In this document: one piece after another, positions 1,100-13,759 of the stretch
Layout of the letters: each line of letters starts with the position of its first letter
Position numbering within the stretch: position 1 is the first letter of the stretch
IMG/VR virus record: IMGVR_UViG_3300042691_020224
Coordinates: 1 to 26,135 of that record
DNA: 26,135 nucleotides
Reading direction: 5' to 3' (one strand)
Source of the DNA: a virus
Program-made: the position numbers and the translations under genes
Notes under the pieces: model-generated
Database searches by the model: none
Seen by the model: the letters and a program-made list of their open reading frames with translations, nothing else
What the model was told of the DNA's origin: nothing

Positions 1100-1309
1100 A
1101 TGAGCGACGCCAACGAACGAAAGCTGATCGCCAGGATCGCCGACCAGGACCTGATCATCCGGCGTCTGATCGGCGCCGGCAACGACATGGCTGCGGCCCT
1201 GGGCGATGGCTGCGCCCACGATGAGGACGGCTGCGATGCCTGTGTCGCCGCCGTAGCCGTATGGGACCGGCTCTACCGGGAGATCAAAAGGAACGACAAA
1301 GCCCCGTAA
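1100..1309 (+). CDS. Small Cys-containing hypothetical protein
   Basis: This 69-aa protein has an Arg/Lys-rich helical N-terminal half (ERKLIARIADQDLIIRRLIG) and a short cysteine cluster (C-x6-C-x2-C within CAHDEDGCDACVAA) that could bind a metal ion. I do not recognise the family. Similar tiny phage proteins with a 'D.CDAC...W..L' end occur in many phage operons, without known function. It begins 4 nt after the PP-loop gene and is last in this transcript. Its final codons form the left arm of the terminator at 1298-1323, and its TAA stop sits in the terminator loop, which leaves no 3' untranslated spacer. Confidence 0.7.
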   Translation: MSDANERKLIARIADQDLIIRRLIGAGNDMAAALGDGCAHDEDGCDACVAAVAVWDRLYREIKRNDKAP

Positions 1310-1323
1310 ACCGGGGCTTTTTT
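1298..1323 (+). terminator. Rho-independent terminator overlapping the 3' end of a gene
   Basis: AAAGCCCCG (1298-1306) pairs with CGGGGCTTT (1312-1320) around a 5-nt loop, and T residues run through 1318-1323. This is a GC-rich stem with a U-tract. It ends the transcript of the three upstream genes. The TAA stop codon of the preceding gene (1307-1309) is inside the loop. Confidence 0.9.
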
Positions 1324-1339
1324 GTGCCCCAATCTTTTT

Positions 1340-1379
1340 TTGAAAATAAGTGCAAAATGCGCTTGCATGATCTGATAAC
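1340..1379 (+). promoter_or_regulatory. AT-rich promoter-like stretch ahead of the structured RNA
   Basis: Directly after the terminator the DNA becomes locally AT-rich. TTGAAA (1340-1345) could act as a -35 element. GATAAC (1374-1379) resembles a -10 hexamer at four of six positions, with GTGCAA at 1350-1355 as an 18-bp-spaced -35. A short inverted repeat TGCAA/TTGCA (1351-1355 and 1363-1367) lies between. The position, after a terminator and before the folded region, fits a promoter. The matches are weak and I infer it mainly from context. Confidence 0.22.
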
Positions 1380-1495
1380 ACAGCCATGTTCCCATCTGTC
1401 GCCAGTACGGGACACGCTACCGACCGCGTCATGCGGGAGCTCAGCGGATCCCTGAAAACGGCCCGTTTTTTGACAGTCCAACCAAACCGACAAGA

Positions 1496-2060
1496 CCTGG
1501 CATAGGCCAGGCACACAACCCAGCTGGGCAACCAGCTGGGCCACTTTACCGGCCCCGTACGGGGCCACCAACCGCATGAAACCGACACACCCGACTCCCT
1601 CAAGAGTCCGGGCCGGTAGGCGCCTAGCCATTGGCGCTGACCCGGCCCGTCATGCGGATCCTTTGGCCCGCAAGGGCCCGCATCAACCAGGTATGACGCC
1701 TATCTTTTGGCGAGCCCCGGCTTCGGCCTAGGGGGTCCGGGTTGATGCGTCACTTTACGCCCGTTCCTACGGGCTTGACTAGCCGGATACTGAGACCGCC
1801 CGCGCCCACTACATTTCCGGGTACACGGCGGTTTCTACGAACCGGCAGTCTTCACTTTCCGGCAGCAATGCCGGCGATCCGGTCCTTCCCCCGCGCAAGC
1901 GGGGATCAACGCCGGCCAGAAACCAATAACCTGGAGCAGTCCCATCGCAAGGTGGGTTTGTACATGACAGGGCGCCGACAGCAATCGGCCCAGATGCCTA
2001 ACACGCCTACGGGGGACATCGTCCGTATCCGGCCACGCGCGCCTCATCTCCGCGTGGTGT
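1496..2060 (+). ncRNA. Candidate large structured non-coding RNA
   Basis: No plausible gene lies here, but exact complementarity covers most of the stretch. Helices seen: 1496-1501/1506-1511; 1519-1527/1532-1540 (9 bp, GCAA loop); 1551-1556/1561-1566; 1572-1579/1650-1657 (8 bp), enclosing 1593-1597/1604-1608 and 1609-1616/1642-1649, the latter enclosing 1620-1624/1633-1637; 1665-1669/1674-1678 (GCAA loop); 1679-1688/1740-1749 (10 bp), enclosing 1697-1700/1709-1712 and a UUCG hairpin at 1715-1735; 1759-1764/1769-1774; 1777-1786/1842-1850 (one bulge), enclosing 1792-1800/1827-1835; 1859-1864/1869-1874 (GCAA loop); 1889-1894/1899-1904 (GCAA loop); 1941-1946/1951-1956 (GCAA loop); 1974-1978/1985-1989; 2033-2039/2051-2057. 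Five GCAA loops fix the strand, because read on the minus strand they would be UUGC. Size, phage setting and ornate folding recall the giant RNA classes GOLLD and ROOL, but I cannot assign it to either. The ends are approximate. Confidence 0.62.
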
Positions 2061-2072
2061 CTCTTTCTACTG

Positions 2073-2489
2073 ATGCGTAAGCAGCAGCCGACCCCCGTGG
2101 ACACGGGCACACAGTCCACCGACGCCGGCGCGGTTCAAGCCGCCGGCAAGCCGATCAAGTCTAAGTTCCACCGGGGCAAGGATGTCACCTTCAAGGTGAA
2201 TTCCAAGCTCACCACGAACCTGATCAACCTCGGGCACCTCGCGTACCAGGCCCTCGAAAAGCCCGGTCACGACATCGACCTGGCGCTGTGCAAGCGCCTG
2301 TGGATTCGGAGCGTCAAACACCTCATCGCCATCCGGCTCGCAGCCGGGGCGAAGGTCCCCGCCATCAAAGGCGTGGATGTCGTCGCCTTCTACGGCGTCG
2401 AAGGCGTGGCGCCGAGCAAGACCGAGGCGCAGATCCGGAAGCTGGAAGCCAAGCTCGCCAAGCTGAAGGCCAAGATCGGCAAGAAGTGA
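2073..2489 (+). CDS. Hypothetical protein with Lys/Glu-rich helical C terminus
   Basis: This 138-aa protein has a flexible Thr/Gln/Ala N terminus (residues 1-30) and a central part (about 35-110) with mixed helices and strands (TFKVNSKLTTNLINLGHLAYQ). It ends in a Lys/Ala-rich amphipathic helix (TEAQIRKLEAKLAKLKAKIG), probably a coiled coil. No family is recognised. The start follows the candidate structured RNA by about a dozen bases, with no Shine-Dalgarno sequence in front (CTTTCTACTG-ATG). The RNA may therefore be its leader or a separate transcript. It is followed by a 14-bp hairpin. Confidence 0.65.
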   Translation: MRKQQPTPVDTGTQSTDAGAVQAAGKPIKSKFHRGKDVTFKVNSKLTTNLINLGHLAYQALEKPGHDIDLALCKRLWIRSVKHLIAIRLAAGAKVPAIKGVDVVAFYGVEGVAPSKTEAQIRKLEAKLAKLKAKIGKK

Positions 2490-3949: not shown

Positions 3950-4378
3950 ATGGGCCTGGACATGTTCGCCCTGACCTGTGACCCGGCCAAGGTCACGCGC
4001 ACCGACCTGGGGGTGGATCAGCTTCCCTCGTGGCACCCGGACAGCCCGGATGACGCGACCATGATCCACACCTGGCGCAAGCACCCGGACCTCCACCAAT
4101 GGATGACCGATCTGTACTTCCGCAAGGAAGGCCTGACCGGGGACATCACCCAGGCTGAAATGGGCCCTGCCTTCAACGCCGGTCAATTCGTGCGCCTCAC
4201 GGACCACGACCTGGACCAGCTTGAAGCCGCCGTCAAAGCCGGCGCGCTGCCCAAAGCCGCCGGGTTCTTCTGGGGCGTCAGCACCCCGGACGACCGCAAG
4301 GACGACCTGGCCTTCATCAAGAAGGCCCGGAAGGCCCTCAAGGCCGGCAAGGCGGTGTTCTACACCTCGTGGTGGTGA
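3950..4378 (+). CDS. Conserved phage 'MGLDM' family protein of unknown function
   Basis: The 142-aa sequence has the features of a widespread phage and bacterial family: N-terminal MGLDMFA, a central TWRKHPDLHQWMTDLY (about residues 41-56), then FVRLTDHDLDQLE, GFFWGVS and the C-terminal KAGKAVFYTSWW. Relatives are sometimes mislabelled phosphoglycerate kinase, but no kinase motif is visible and the function is not known. Length is normal for the family. It starts one base after the preceding stop and ends 21 nt before a strong terminator, so it is the last gene of the operon. Confidence 0.85.
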   Translation: MGLDMFALTCDPAKVTRTDLGVDQLPSWHPDSPDDATMIHTWRKHPDLHQWMTDLYFRKEGLTGDITQAEMGPAFNAGQFVRLTDHDLDQLEAAVKAGALPKAAGFFWGVSTPDDRKDDLAFIKKARKALKAGKAVFYTSWW

Positions 4379-4399: not shown

Positions 4400-4429
4400 G
4401 GCCCGGGGTTCATCCCCCGGGCCTTTTTT
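4400..4429 (+). terminator. Strong rho-independent terminator
   Basis: GGCCCGGGG (4400-4408) pairs perfectly with CCCCGGGCC (4415-4423) around TTCATC, followed by six T residues (4424-4429). It ends the plus-strand operon 2073-4378. The bases after the T-run (TGTGCCC) are the same as those after the terminator at 1298-1323. Confidence 0.92.
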
Positions 4430-4440
4430 GTGCCCGGCGC

Positions 4441-4542
4441 TGTCAGCACATGATCACGAAAACGACCCTTTCCGGTTCGGAAAACCCATTTTGGTTATCC
4501 GAACGGACATAAAAGGCCCGTTCCTGTGATCATACGCTGACA
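4441..4542. repeat. 102-nt imperfect inverted repeat / extended hairpin
   Basis: The outer arms TGTCAGC (4441-4447) and GCTGACA (4536-4542) are exact complements. After a 2x2 mismatch, ATGATCAC (4450-4457) matches GTGATCAT (4526-4533). Further in, AACG/CGTT (4461-4464/4519-4522), CCTTT/AAAGG (4467-4471/4512-4516), GTTCGGA/TCCGAAC (4475-4481/4498-4504) and AACC/GGTT (4483-4486/4493-4496) continue the stem to a small apical loop. The whole segment therefore folds on itself. It lies between a plus-strand terminator and the stop codon of the minus-strand gene at 4548, so it would be that gene's 3' region. There is no U-tract. Possibilities are a processed or stabilising RNA hairpin, a replication element or a small inverted-repeat insertion. 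Confidence 0.75.
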
Positions 4543-4547
4543 CTAGA

Positions 4548-4841
4548 TCAGATCAGCCGGCGCCAGCGCGGCAGATCCTGCCGGGCCTTGCGCAGCTTGC
4601 GCCGATACCGGCGCATCACCAGGGCCTTGCGCGCGCGCCGATCCGCAGATCGGCGCCGGCTCTCAGCCACCTGGCATCGCTGCCTGTCCAGGCGGTCATG
4701 GTACCACGCGAACATGGATCCCACCGGCCCGGACGGCAGCTTCAGGCGCCGGATCACCGCCGGCACGGATCCCGCCGGATCGAGAAATTCGCTGTTTTCG
4801 CCCGGTTCTTTGAGGAACTTTCCTCGTTTTGGGTTTTTCAT
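4548..4841 (-). CDS. Small Arg-rich basic protein, possible RNA-binding regulator
   Basis: This 97-aa frame on the minus strand has third-position GC typical of the phage. The N terminus is MKNPKRGKFLKEPGENSEF. A hydrophobic centre with SMFAWYHDRL follows, and the C-terminal half (about 50-97) is extremely Arg-rich (AESRRRSADRRARKALVMRR). Such a pattern resembles arginine-rich RNA-binding motifs, as in lambda-type N antiterminators, though I see no other homology and the match is by composition only. The start has no clear Shine-Dalgarno sequence. A plus-strand frame over the same bases (4588-4902) is also Arg-rich but has poorer codon character. The gene is divergent from the resolvase, with a 360-nt repeat-containing region between. 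Confidence 0.55.
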   Translation of the reverse strand: MKNPKRGKFLKEPGENSEFLDPAGSVPAVIRRLKLPSGPVGSMFAWYHDRLDRQRCQVAESRRRSADRRARKALVMRRYRRKLRKARQDLPRWRRLI

Positions 4842-4896
4842 TAAACCCCAATGTTTTTTTGAGCTCCCGGAAAGACAAGCCTATCAGCTGACAGTA

Positions 4897-5005
4897 GCGT
4901 AGATCGTTGACTTGCAGCTCTGACTTGCACGCCAGGCGCACGCAACTTCATGCAGATCAGCCCCATGCAGCCAGGCGTAGATCGGCCCGGTGATCGCTGA
5001 CTTGC
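4897..5005. repeat. Cluster of short direct repeats in the divergent control region
   Basis: TGACTTGC occurs at 4908-4915, 4921-4928 and 4998-5005. GCGTAGATCG occurs at 4897-4906 and 4975-4984. GCCAGGCG occurs at 4931-4938 and 4970-4977, and CATGCAG at 4949-4955 and 4964-4970. The repeats lie between the minus-strand gene at 4548-4841 and the resolvase at 5202. They could be operator sites for a phage repressor, or iteron-like replication sites. No coding frame here is convincing. Confidence 0.6.
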
Positions 5006-5016
5006 GCACGAGGAAA

Positions 5017-5169
5017 CACTTTCCTTGCCTGTCTACGCATGAAACCCCCGTAAACATTAGAGGAAAGTGAGGAATCCCTACGGGATAGGTTAAGACGCCC
5101 TAACGGGCTGTCATTAACCCCCTTAGCCGTTGGCAGGGGGCATGACCCGTTAACTCTGATCTCGCGTAG
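5017..5169 (+). promoter_or_regulatory. Structured 5' leader of the resolvase gene with alternative pairings
   Basis: CTACGC (5033-5038) pairs with GCGTAG (5164-5169), closing a domain of about 137 nt. Inside are ATCCC/GGGAT (5074-5078/5082-5086), a longer stem GTTAA-GAC-GCCC with GGGC-GTC-TTAAC (5089-5100/5105-5118, two bulges) and CCCCC/GGGGG (5118-5122/5136-5140) enclosing GCC/GGC. Two further perfect pairings compete with or cross these: CACTTTCCT (5017-5025) with AGGAAAGTG (5061-5069), and TAACGGG (5101-5107) with CCCGTTA (5146-5152). Mutually exclusive helices ahead of a start codon suggest a switch or protein-binding leader. No known riboswitch class was recognised. Confidence 0.5.
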
Positions 5170-5201
5170 GCCGGACCCCATCCTCACAACCTGGACAACC
5201 C

Positions 5202-10513: not shown

Positions 10514-12643
10514 ATGGAAAACAACGAACCCATCGAAAACGATCTTCCCGACACGGACTCAGCGTCCGAGGGCGAGCCGAGACGCGCCGGCATCAAGCGC
10601 GAGCCTGACGAGAATCTGCGGGCCTCGCGCCGCGCGCTCGTGACCGAATGGACCGGCAAGATCATGCGGGCCAAGAAGCATTGGGAGCTGGCGCACCGCC
10701 GGATGAAGGAGGATTCGGATTTCTACATGGGCAAGCAATGGCCCTTCCACCGCGGCGACGACGACCGCTATGTGGCGAACCTGGCGCAGCGCCATGTGCA
10801 GACGCGCGTGGCGGCGCTGTACGCCAAGAACCCCAAGGCGGTCGCCAAGCGCCGGCGCGTGCTGGACTTCCAGATCTGGGAGGGCAACGCCAGCGAGCTG
10901 ATGTCGGCCCAGGTGGCGAACGACCAATCGATGATGTTCATGGGCGCGCCGAACCCGGCGTCCATGGCGCTCATGCAGGATGTGCAGCAGGGTTTCGAGA
11001 AGCGCCGGAAGCTGGACAAGGTCGCCGAGACGCTGGAGATCGTGTTCAAGCACACCCTGGAGCACCAGAATTTCAAGATCCAGATGAAGCAGCTGGTCCG
11101 GCGCGTCTGCGTCACCGGCGTCGGTTTCGTCAAGATCGGCTACCATCGCGTGATGGGCAACCGCCCGGAGGATGTCGAGAAGATCACGGACATCAGCGAG
11201 CAGCTGCGCACGCTTGAGCGCCTTGAGCTCGACCAGAAGGACGGCAAGTTCGATGAGAACCAGGCCAAGGCCGAGCAGCTGCGGCTGCTCATGAAGGAGA
11301 TCCAGGAGAAGGTCAGCGAGGGCGAGACGATCACGGACGAGGGCCTGGTGTTCGACTTCCCGCAGTCGCAGAACATCATCGTGGACACGCGCTGCCGGCA
11401 GCTCCAGGGCTTCATCGGGGCCGAGTGGGTCGCCCAGGAGTTCCTGCTGACATGCAACGAGGTGAAGGAGGTCTACGGGGTTGACCTGGGCAAGACCTAC
11501 ACGCGCCAGGAGCAGCAGCTGACCGAGTCCGGCATGTCCGAGAAGACCAGCGACGACCTGGCCCGGATCTGGGAGGTCTACAACAAGCGGGACGGCATGA
11601 AGTATGTGATCGCGGACGGCTACCCGGACTTCCTCCTGGAGCCCAGCTGCCCGGACATCAAGCTTCGCCGGTTCTGGCCTTTCTTCTGTCTCCTGTTCAA
11701 CGAGGTCGAGAACGACCGGGACATCTACCCGCCGTCCGACATCCGGCTCCTGAAGCCGATCCAGATGGAATACAACCTCGCGCGCCAGCGGCTGCGGGAG
11801 CACCGCAACGCCAACCGGCCCTTGTATGTGACGCCGATCGGCATGCTGTCCGAGGGGGATGTCAAGAAGCTCATGGACCGGCAGCCCAACGAGGTGATCC
11901 AGCTGAACAGCCTCCAGCCCGGCCAGGCGGTCAACCAGGTGATCCAGCCGATGCAGCCGATCCCGATCGACCCGTCCCTGTACGATACCTCGATGCTCAT
12001 GGAGGACTTGTTCCGCGTGGTCGGCAGCCAGGAAGCCAACCTGGGCGGCGGCACCGGCAACACGGCGACCGAGGTATCGGTCGCGGAATCCAGCCGCATG
12101 AGCTCCCTGGGCTCGCATGTGGACGACCTGGACGAATTCCTGACCGACCTGGCAAAGGCGGCCAGCCAGGTGCTCCTGACGCACATGGACCCCATGACGG
12201 CGACCAAGATTGCCGGCCCTGGGGCGTCCTGGCCGACCCTTTCGGCCCAGGAAATCGCCGATGAGCTCTACCTGGAGATCGAAGCCGGCAGCTCCGGTCG
12301 CCCGAACAAGGCCACGGAGATTGCTAACTTTGAGCGCCTGGCGCCCCTCCTGATCCAGATTCCCGGCATCGACCCGACCTGGCTCGCCAAGGAGGCCATC
12401 AAGCGCATGGACGATGGCGTGGACATGACCGAGGCGGTCAAGGCCGCGATCCCGTCCATCGTGCAGCAGAACGCCCAGAAGCAGATGGGCGAGGCTCAGA
12501 TGGCTGGCGGGCCTGAAGCCATGGGCGGTGCGCCGCTGCCGGGGCCGGAAGCAGCCGCCCCTGGCGCGCCTACTGGCGGCAACGCCCAGGTGCCCAACAT
12601 GCCTCAACCGAAGATGTACGGGTTGCCCACGCCCCCCCAATAA
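10514..12643 (+). CDS. P22-like portal protein
   Basis: The 709-aa length and the order of blocks fit P22-type portals, the dodecameric ring at the packaging vertex. Visible landmarks are an early helix (HWELAHRRMKEDSDFYMGKQW) and the 'RYVANLAQRHVQTRVAALYAK' region near residue 90. A central Glu/Lys-rich coiled section (about 220-275), the FWPFFCLLFNEVENDRDIYP segment (about 390-410) and PSDIRLLKPIQMEYNLARQR, typical of the clip/stem side, follow. The tail is Gly/Pro/Ala-rich (about 660-709). The start has the context TTTTACCACC-ATGG and no Shine-Dalgarno sequence. It is preceded by TerL and followed by the scaffold. Its TAA stop lies in a C5/G5 hairpin loop. Confidence 0.93.
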   Translation: MENNEPIENDLPDTDSASEGEPRRAGIKREPDENLRASRRALVTEWTGKIMRAKKHWELAHRRMKEDSDFYMGKQWPFHRGDDDRYVANLAQRHVQTRVAALYAKNPKAVAKRRRVLDFQIWEGNASELMSAQVANDQSMMFMGAPNPASMALMQDVQQGFEKRRKLDKVAETLEIVFKHTLEHQNFKIQMKQLVRRVCVTGVGFVKIGYHRVMGNRPEDVEKITDISEQLRTLERLELDQKDGKFDENQAKAEQLRLLMKEIQEKVSEGETITDEGLVFDFPQSQNIIVDTRCRQLQGFIGAEWVAQEFLLTCNEVKEVYGVDLGKTYTRQEQQLTESGMSEKTSDDLARIWEVYNKRDGMKYVIADGYPDFLLEPSCPDIKLRRFWPFFCLLFNEVENDRDIYPPSDIRLLKPIQMEYNLARQRLREHRNANRPLYVTPIGMLSEGDVKKLMDRQPNEVIQLNSLQPGQAVNQVIQPMQPIPIDPSLYDTSMLMEDLFRVVGSQEANLGGGTGNTATEVSVAESSRMSSLGSHVDDLDEFLTDLAKAASQVLLTHMDPMTATKIAGPGASWPTLSAQEIADELYLEIEAGSSGRPNKATEIANFERLAPLLIQIPGIDPTWLAKEAIKRMDDGVDMTEAVKAAIPSIVQQNAQKQMGEAQMAGGPEAMGGAPLPGPEAAAPGAPTGGNAQVPNMPQPKMYGLPTPPQ

Positions 12644-12692
12644 GGGGGAAGTGGCTGGATTGCAAAGCCACGGCACCGACAGAAGATCGGTG
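12634..12692 (+). promoter_or_regulatory. Three tandem hairpins between portal stop and scaffold start
   Basis: CCCCC/GGGGG (12634-12638/12644-12648) brackets the portal stop in the loop AATAA. GTGGCT/AGCCAC (12651-12656/12666-12671) and CACCGA/TCGGTG (12674-12679/12687-12692) follow directly. The scaffold GTG begins two bases after the last stem. They may tune translation of the scaffold relative to the portal or mark an mRNA processing site. No U-tract follows, so termination is unlikely. Confidence 0.5.
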
Positions 12693-12694
12693 TC

Positions 12695-13759
12695 GTGGAC
12701 AACCAGACGCTAACAGATCCCGCTGCAGCCCCGTCAGCTGCAGCCACGCCCGAATCGACTCCGGCTCCGGCCGAGGTCACGCAGTCTCCGGCCCCGGAAA
12801 ACGGGTCCGGGCAGGAGACGGCACAGACGCTAAACGAAGTGACCGCTGGTTCGTCGCCGGCGGCCGACAAGGACGCTAAGAAGGAGACCCTGCTGGATGT
12901 CGTGAAGACGGCGTTCAACAAGGAATCCGCGGATTCGTCCACCGCGAAGGCACAATCGGATCCCGCGCCGGATCAGCCTAACGATGCACAGGGCAAGGAC
13001 AGCCAGGTGCAGAAGGATGGCCCCGAAGCGCAGCCCGACTTGCCGTTCCACAACCACCCCCGATGGAAAGCGATGATCGCTGAACGCGAAAGCTTGAAGC
13101 CGGCGGCTGAGCAGTACGGAAAGATCACGACATTCATGAAGACCAACGGCCTGACCCCTCAGGAAATGGCCGAAGGCATGACTGTCATGGCGCTCATGAA
13201 GACCAACCCGGCGGCCGCCTACCAGCAGCTGCAGGGCTATGTCGAGAAATTGGCCCGGTTCACGGGGGATGTACTTCCCCCGGAGCTCAAGGCCAAGGTC
13301 GATGAGGGCCTGACCGATCCGGAGACCGCGAAGCGCCTCGCGCAGCTTGAGGCTGAGCGTGAGTTTTCATACGCCCGCCAGGTGGAAGAACAGCAGCGCA
13401 TCCAGGCCGAGCAGGAGATGATCGTCCGCCAACAGGCGGCCGAAAACTCCCAGCAGATGGTCGCAGCTGTCATGCGTTGGGAACAGGCCGAGCGAGCGAA
13501 GGACCCCGACTGGGCTCAGAAGTACGAGATGGTGCAGGACCGGGTGAAGGCTCTCCTGGCAACGCAGCCGGCTCGCAATCCATCGGACGCAATCCAGATC
13601 GCACAACGCGCCCTGGCCGATGTGAACGCGCGCTTGAGGCCGCTTGCAGGGAGGACGATGCCGCTTAGGACCCCAGCCAGCTCTTTGTCGTCCGCTTCCG
13701 CAACGCCGGCCCCCAGATCCCTCGCGGACCTGGTCCGGATGGGGCTGCAAGGCTCCTAA
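12695..13759 (+). CDS. Phage scaffolding protein (internal assembly core)
   Basis: The 354-aa protein is highly charged and disorder-prone, and sits between portal and capsid genes, the normal place for scaffold. Residues 1-115 are Ala/Pro/Ser/Glu-rich with low complexity (e.g. DPAAAPSAAATPESTPAPAE). Residues about 120-300 are helical with Gln/Glu/Lys heptads (AEREFSYARQVEEQQRIQAE). The C terminus is basic (SLADLVRMGLQ), likely the capsid-binding end. No protease signature is visible. The start is GTG; the first in-frame ATG would remove the acidic N-terminal part. The GTG lies 2 nt after a hairpin. Sequence is not specific enough to name a family, so the assignment rests on composition and position. 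Confidence 0.75.
   Translation: MDNQTLTDPAAAPSAAATPESTPAPAEVTQSPAPENGSGQETAQTLNEVTAGSSPAADKDAKKETLLDVVKTAFNKESADSSTAKAQSDPAPDQPNDAQGKDSQVQKDGPEAQPDLPFHNHPRWKAMIAERESLKPAAEQYGKITTFMKTNGLTPQEMAEGMTVMALMKTNPAAAYQQLQGYVEKLARFTGDVLPPELKAKVDEGLTDPETAKRLAQLEAEREFSYARQVEEQQRIQAEQEMIVRQQAAENSQQMVAAVMRWEQAERAKDPDWAQKYEMVQDRVKALLATQPARNPSDAIQIAQRALADVNARLRPLAGRTMPLRTPASSLSSASATPAPRSLADLVRMGLQGS

Follow-up and report, generated by a model that had tools for sequence, protein, structure and literature searches.

A modular array of structured RNAs in a group of tailed phages, with units exchanged at CTTT spacers and tRNA genes in the same slots

The locus and its relatives

The window, by which we mean the whole stretch of DNA analysed, is an IMG/VR virus record of 26,135 bases containing genes for a large terminase, a portal, a capsid protein and a collagen-like tail fibre, which identify it as a tailed phage. 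An array of folded, non-coding sequence is flanked by a PAPS-reductase-like gene and a small open reading frame (211-1309) on one side and by a gene for a basic protein of 138 aa on the other (Table 1). A sequence-only reading of this DNA had proposed a large structured RNA at 1496-2060. A highly structured non-coding RNA locus is present, but its extent had to be redrawn: the conserved unit runs from about 1393, where a leader module follows a promoter-like block some 100 nt earlier than had been proposed, to 2072, ending at the start codon of the downstream gene.

A search of IMG/VR with the downstream basic protein gave six relatives, to which L014 was added by a pattern of module B, L034 by a neighbouring protein, L113 by a pattern of module J (a unit of certain relatives, described below) and L118, L120, L121 and L122 by a final leader pattern. 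The relatives, numbered L002-L122, comprise thirteen loci in addition to the window. About eleven distinct arrays remain once near-duplicates are merged (L005 with L007, and L034 with L120 over the portion present). These arrays fall into two clades of one phage group, clade 1 comprising the window, L002-L007 and L014, and clade 2 comprising L034, L113, L118, L120, L121 and L122. The gene order flanking the array is kept among the relatives. Relative to the window, the terminase of L113 is 79% identical and the early proteins of clade 2 are about 40-67% identical. The sample therefore covers about a dozen arrays from a single phage group, several of them on contigs that are fragments, and the families of modules A to F were found in this group only. 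A DNA search of GenBank phages and plasmids gave no match to the array, and GTDB genomes searched for the host by the terminase and by an exact tRNA-Glu pattern returned nothing. A scan with a module C pattern recovered only arrays already known and chance matches in coding sequence, and modules D and E were absent from phages carrying a distant relative of the gene at 3950-4378 (among L035-L110). Two further loci, L008 and L016, were set aside as chance pattern matches without an array.

Table 1. Features of the array and its borders in the window
Feature	Position	Strand	Content
Intrinsic terminator of the upstream gene, insulating the array	1298-1325	+	GC stem and T run
Putative promoter block	1365-1390	+	CTTGCAT ... 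CATGTT; conserved in 10 aligned arrays
Module A (leader)	1393-1465	+	Closing stem CUGUC...GACAG; optional inner hairpin with ACCGA/GAGCUC internal loop
Module B	1466-1547	+	Near-invariant TTTTTTGACAGTCCAACCAAACCGA, then two hairpins, the second (1519-1540) GCAA-looped; end CCACTTT
Module C	1549-1664	+	5' hairpin; closing stem CCGCATGA/TCATGCGG; two inner hairpins; end GGATCCTTT
Module D	1665-1756	+	GCAA hairpin; closing stem 1679-1688/1740-1749; UUCG loop; end TCACTTT
Module E	1757-1858	+	5' hairpin; closing stem 1777-1786/1842-1850; inner helix; end TTCACTTT
Module F	1859-2057	+	Several hairpins with GNRA loops at 1865-1868, 1895-1898 and 1947-1950
Linker to the start codon	2058-2072	+	TGTCTCTTTCTACTG, containing the last CTTT
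Gene directly 3' of the array	2073-2489	+	Basic protein, pI 10.2, predicted helical; homologues in both clades

Equivalent terminator stems with T runs occur in most other aligned arrays, though not in L034 or L113 as aligned; in the window, a consensus terminator scan gave only an overlapping site at 1313-1330. The left element of the promoter-like block is CTTGCAY throughout, and the right-hand element is CATGTT in the window and CATAAC in clade 2. A sigma-70 consensus scan gave no match at the block. The position of the conserved block right before the leader, together with the upstream terminator in most arrays, suggests a dedicated promoter. At the other border, the basic protein gave a structure model of moderate confidence (pLDDT 68.7) with no fold match in structural comparison; a basic protein predicted to be helical could be an RNA-binding partner of the array.

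Folded modules and their sense strand

The predicted minimum free energy of 1496-2060 on the plus strand is -278.4 kcal/mol, compared with -224.8 +/- 6.3 in 100 dinucleotide shuffles, none of which was as low (z -8.56); on the minus strand the z score is -4.01. In a 200-nt scan of the entire window, the array appears as a run of low plus-strand values, and only a long hairpin at 4401-4600 and one segment containing the upstream terminator are lower. The three long-range helices proposed in the sequence-only reading (1572-1579/1650-1657 and the closing stems of modules D and E, the latter with one bulged A) are exact, and so are the five GCAA tetraloops, at 1528-1531, 1670-1673 and the three GNRA positions of module F, and the UUCG loop at 1722-1725. 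The stem of the GCAA hairpin at 1947-1950 includes one U-G pair. Perfect tetraloop hairpins with stems of at least 5 pairs number seven in the array of the window, four of them GNRA; 2000 mononucleotide shuffles gave means of 0.90 and 0.025, respectively. Across nine arrays, which are related and so not independent, GNRA loops account for 22/49 such hairpins on the plus strand and 0/49 on the minus strand, and the variation seen in the loops stays inside GNRA (GCAA, GUAA, GCGA and GAAA). This strand bias and the compensatory changes described below establish the plus strand as the sense strand, as had been proposed. No reading frame continues across the point where L003 lacks the 92 nt of module D, which bears out the earlier view of the locus as non-coding, and long stop-free frames of the arrays fall in differing frames and strands. 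A small open reading frame in module C (ATGAAACCG...) was rejected on inspection; its frame is broken in L002 and its indels track the helices.

The proposed helices are upheld in homologues by compensatory changes in modules B, C, D, E and F, most strongly in module E. There, all 120 of 120 cells (24 pairs in 5 sequences) are paired and 10 pairs are altered on both sides, where shuffles gave 5.5 and slid controls 0-1; these counts come from a small number of sequences, and the shuffle counts are not probabilities. The second hairpin of module B reads CCCAGCUGG-GCAA-CCAGCUGGG in the window and, with compensatory changes, UCCUGCCGG-GCAA-CCGGUAGGA in L006 and CCCUGCUGG-GCAA-CCAGCAGGG in L014; in L034 it is ACCGGGCA-GAAA-UGCCCGGU, and GAAA on a different stem is also found in L113. 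In module F, the stem of the hairpin at 1941-1956 differs in each of four phages, with a GCAA loop in the window and GUAA in L002, L003 and L005, and over the whole module these three relatives combine stem compensation with switches among GCAA, GUAA and GCGA loops; its conserved segments are CCAGAAACCAAUAACCUGG and GACAGGGCGCCG..GCAA..CGGCCCAGA. In modules D and H and in the module C of clade 2 pairing is preserved as well, though double changes are fewer. With L034 left out of the training set, covariance models still recovered its module D (E 1.5e-4) and its E-like module (E 1.3e-7) in the expected places. The layout of module C recurs in clade 2, where a model of it gives no match to the clade-1 copies; we describe the two as similar in layout and do not claim homology. 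The 3' arm of the module A closing stem extends into module B.

Exchange at CTTT sites and tRNA genes in the slots

Each module ends in (A/C)CTTT, and it is at those points that the arrays differ from phage to phage. The motif [AC]CTTT occurs at 6.06/kb in the arrays and at 1.12/kb in the remaining window. In folding with a span limit of 160 nt, pairs across the CTTT cuts averaged 2.81 (pooled), compared with 9.46 for the mean of all positions. Not one of 5000 shifted cut sets fell as low; the cut sets themselves had been picked from the motif and from comparative boundaries and not blind. In place of the one nested fold first envisaged, the locus is a chain of modules split by CTTT. Full-length folding without a span limit does predict long-range pairs across CTTT sites, and the contrast is then weak, which leaves room for a higher-order fold.

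Entire modules appear, disappear or change places at the CTTT sites, and arrays differ in how many modules they have and of which kind. Module D is common to the window, L002, L034, L118 and L122; L003 lacks exactly its 92 nt, and there GGATCCTTT runs directly into ACGCCCG. In L002 a module J of 189 nt is inserted between D and E, L113 is without 259 nt (D and an E-like module) that its sister L034 carries, and in L003, L004 and L005 the inner part of module A is swapped for a short hairpin. The order A-B-C is constant in clade 1, where C comes before the D slot, whereas in clade 2 the C-like module comes after D, J or H.

The same slots hold tRNA genes in several relatives: Glu(UUC) once in L002 and twice each in L006 and L014, Asp(GUC) three times in L004, and Ile(GAU) twice in L118. 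The window itself contains no tRNA that we could find. The slot tRNAs end in CCA or similar and are followed directly by NTTT or a close variant, and in L002 the tRNA-Glu gene lies immediately before the same CTTTCTACTG that is found in the linker of the window. The three tRNA-Asp(GUC) genes of L004 are consecutive (4864-5096), with differing bodies and 4-nt NTTT spacers. Between the two tRNA-Ile(GAU) genes of L118 there is a further tRNA (12637-12706; Rfam, 43.6 bits) with an odd anticodon arm, for which ARAGORN made no call. Some module 3' ends, such as GGAUCCUUU at 1655-1664 of the window and AGAUCACCUUU in L002, resemble the 3' tail of 16S rRNA, perhaps by chance.

These comparisons bear on whether the locus acts as DNA, for instance through hairpins serving phage replication origin, packaging or recombination. 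Dense inverted repeats and frequent exchange of units would suit such an element; however, the stems accept G-U pairs, GNRA loops are confined to one strand (0/49 on the other) and plus-strand tRNA genes occupy the same slots, and we consider a DNA-level role very improbable. They bear equally on the suggestion that the array is a large leader of the gene at 2073. The array does reach the start codon, and the gene or a homologue directly follows it in several relatives and lies downstream of it in both clades, as might be expected if it controlled the gene in cis, for example by autoregulation through the basic protein. Against this, small coding cassettes occur within the series downstream in L004, L005, L007 and L014 and so come between array and gene, as do tRNA genes in several relatives; the content of the array changes fully while the gene stays, and no Rfam leader or riboswitch model matched above its gathering score. 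We regard control in cis as improbable. The coding cassettes of these four loci are headed by a GGCCGYGCAATTCCGCGCGGCC hairpin and, as is the case for the RNA modules, a CCTTT comes after them.

Modules also recur across the clades. Between the window and L122, module D is 96% identical, whereas two neighbouring proteins are only 42.5% and 51% identical. Module H is common to L005/L007 and L118/L121/L122, in different slots, and module J to L002 and L034/L113. A sub-helix with the internal loop ACCGA-CC...GG-GAGCUC is found in leader A of the window, L002, L006 and L014, and the internal loop recurs on different flanking stems in module E of L006 and L014. Such likeness across the clades may reflect either recent transfer or strong constraint.

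Comparison with known RNAs, expression and possible function

No Rfam 15 model matched the window at the gathering score, and a permissive scan of 1270-2120 (E up to 10) gave no match to GOLLD, ROOL, HEARO, OLE or group I/II introns, the families suggested by the sequence-only reading. In the other arrays only tRNAs reach the gathering score; the GOLLD model gave no match in L034 at E up to 1 or in the other arrays at the gathering score, and the ROOL model none in the window, L034 or the other arrays. Module J, about 190 nt long (L002 5440-5628, L034 4541-4734, L113 10650-10842), contains the long conserved stretches UUAACCAGGCUCC, AGGAUCAUGCCCC and CCAUGGAAA, has no Rfam match in L002 or L034 and is, of all the units, the strongest candidate for a new class of ribozyme or aptamer. 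Ornate folds and conserved internal loops, those of module J above all, could point to modules that are ribozymes or introns, but group I/II, HDV, hammerhead and other Rfam ribozyme models found nothing even at permissive thresholds, and we give this reading the least credence of all.

The array might instead be one giant RNA of the ornate GOLLD/ROOL kind, with tRNAs plugged in and peripheral domains that can be exchanged, perhaps assembled into a homo-oligomeric particle. This would account for the length of about 650 nt and the many GNRA loops; the fixed A-B-C start in clade 1 could also mean joint function. A homo-oligomeric nanocage is characteristic of ROOL. As in GOLLD and ROOL, dense structure of 500-900 nt is phage-encoded near or around tRNAs, with terminase, portal, capsid and tail genes in the window and tRNAs in the relatives; GOLLD linkers sometimes contain tRNAs, and both families lie near tRNA islands (PMC12286853). 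GOLLD, however, has a universally conserved 3' region and a variable 5' region (PMC12286853), the opposite of the arrangement here, where the 5' leader (A/B) is most constant and the 3' modules vary. The array consists of independent modules with CTTT punctuation and has neither a single conserved fold nor a match to an Rfam model; its modules vary singly, differ in number and kind, take up different orders in the two clades and share slots with tRNA genes, coding cassettes interrupt the series, and few local pairs cross the CTTT sites. One giant RNA, as the sequence-only reading had favoured, thus appears unlikely.

In kind, the array is best placed with phage tRNA operons; what is new is its many RNA families, its CTTT punctuation and the exchange of its units. 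The tRNA operon of bacteriophage T4 also encodes two further stable RNAs. It resembles the array as a polycistronic phage cluster of stable RNAs, and its dimeric tRNA precursors, whose spacers are likewise under 5 nt, are processed much as is proposed below (PMC11143913); in L002, L004, L006, L014 and L118, tRNA genes take their place among the other units, separated by short spacers. The array departs from the T4 operon in having more uncharacterised structured RNAs than tRNAs, and in the exchange of whole units between phages at CTTT. The ncRNAs of phiKZ detected by Grad-seq are abundant single RNAs of about 100 nt from intergenic space (PMC8545117), comparable with one module in size. In mycobacteria and their phages, tRNA arrays with GOLLD inside are reported (PMC5966550; PMC7549688 as cited in PMC12286853); they combine long tRNA sets with one ncRNA, whereas the present arrays have many ncRNA families and few, repeated tRNA isoacceptors. 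A limited literature search found no description of such an array.

The array is probably a tRNA/ncRNA operon transcribed as one polycistronic precursor from a putative promoter of its own, with cuts at the CTTT spacers that release separate RNAs, which may act in trans. Transcription would start from this promoter near 1393, pass through modules A to F and continue into the gene at 2073. Each autonomous unit has its own closing terminal helix, then a short 3' tail and CTTT. If the encoded CCA-CTTT ends of the tRNAs are a guide, the precursor would probably be cut in the U-containing spacers, with RNase P acting at the tRNA 5' ends, to give separate RNAs of about 80-200 nt. A tRNA functions only once excised, and the units next to it share its spacer, which makes excision of the other units probable as well. 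The GNRA loops may be retained for tertiary docking or protein binding.

As an array of small folded RNAs, the locus looks like an RNA toolkit built to change. Most plausibly, the freed RNAs might target the host in trans, affecting its translation or its defence nucleases. Such a role would account both for the speed at which entire units are exchanged and for the repetition of tRNA isoacceptors. Repeats within one array (Glu twice, Asp three times, Ile twice) and fast unit turnover would fit decoys or replacements that counter a host defence cutting tRNAs. The codon usage of the window phage shows no obvious rare Glu, Asp or Ile codon that those tRNAs would serve, although codon supply could also be their role. 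We tentatively raise the further possibility, which we do not think likely, that the array is the RNA equivalent of a cassette array: a phage platform on which autonomous RNA effectors (decoy tRNAs and uncharacterised structured RNAs) are gathered, reshuffled and traded at CTTT borders, serving as a rapidly evolving, RNA-based island for counter-defence or host takeover.

Phage-encoded structured RNAs are few and poorly understood, and at least eight undescribed families of them are gathered at this locus. Natural events of gain, loss and exchange delimit each RNA unit, and the unit borders predict processing sites. The repeated isoacceptors in shared slots make the link to anticodon-nuclease defence directly testable, and the array may bear on the origin of ornate phage RNAs such as GOLLD near tRNA islands.

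Two other regions of the window attracted attention. A long, near-perfect hairpin at 4440-4545 (z about -7.5 on both strands), kept in L002, L003, L009 and L014, sits between a plus-strand gene and a minus-strand open reading frame and is possibly a bidirectional terminator or another RNA. The region at 4840-5200, kept in L003, L002 and L009, is non-coding, with repeated GACTTGCA-type words and several hairpins, and is a possible origin or second RNA region.
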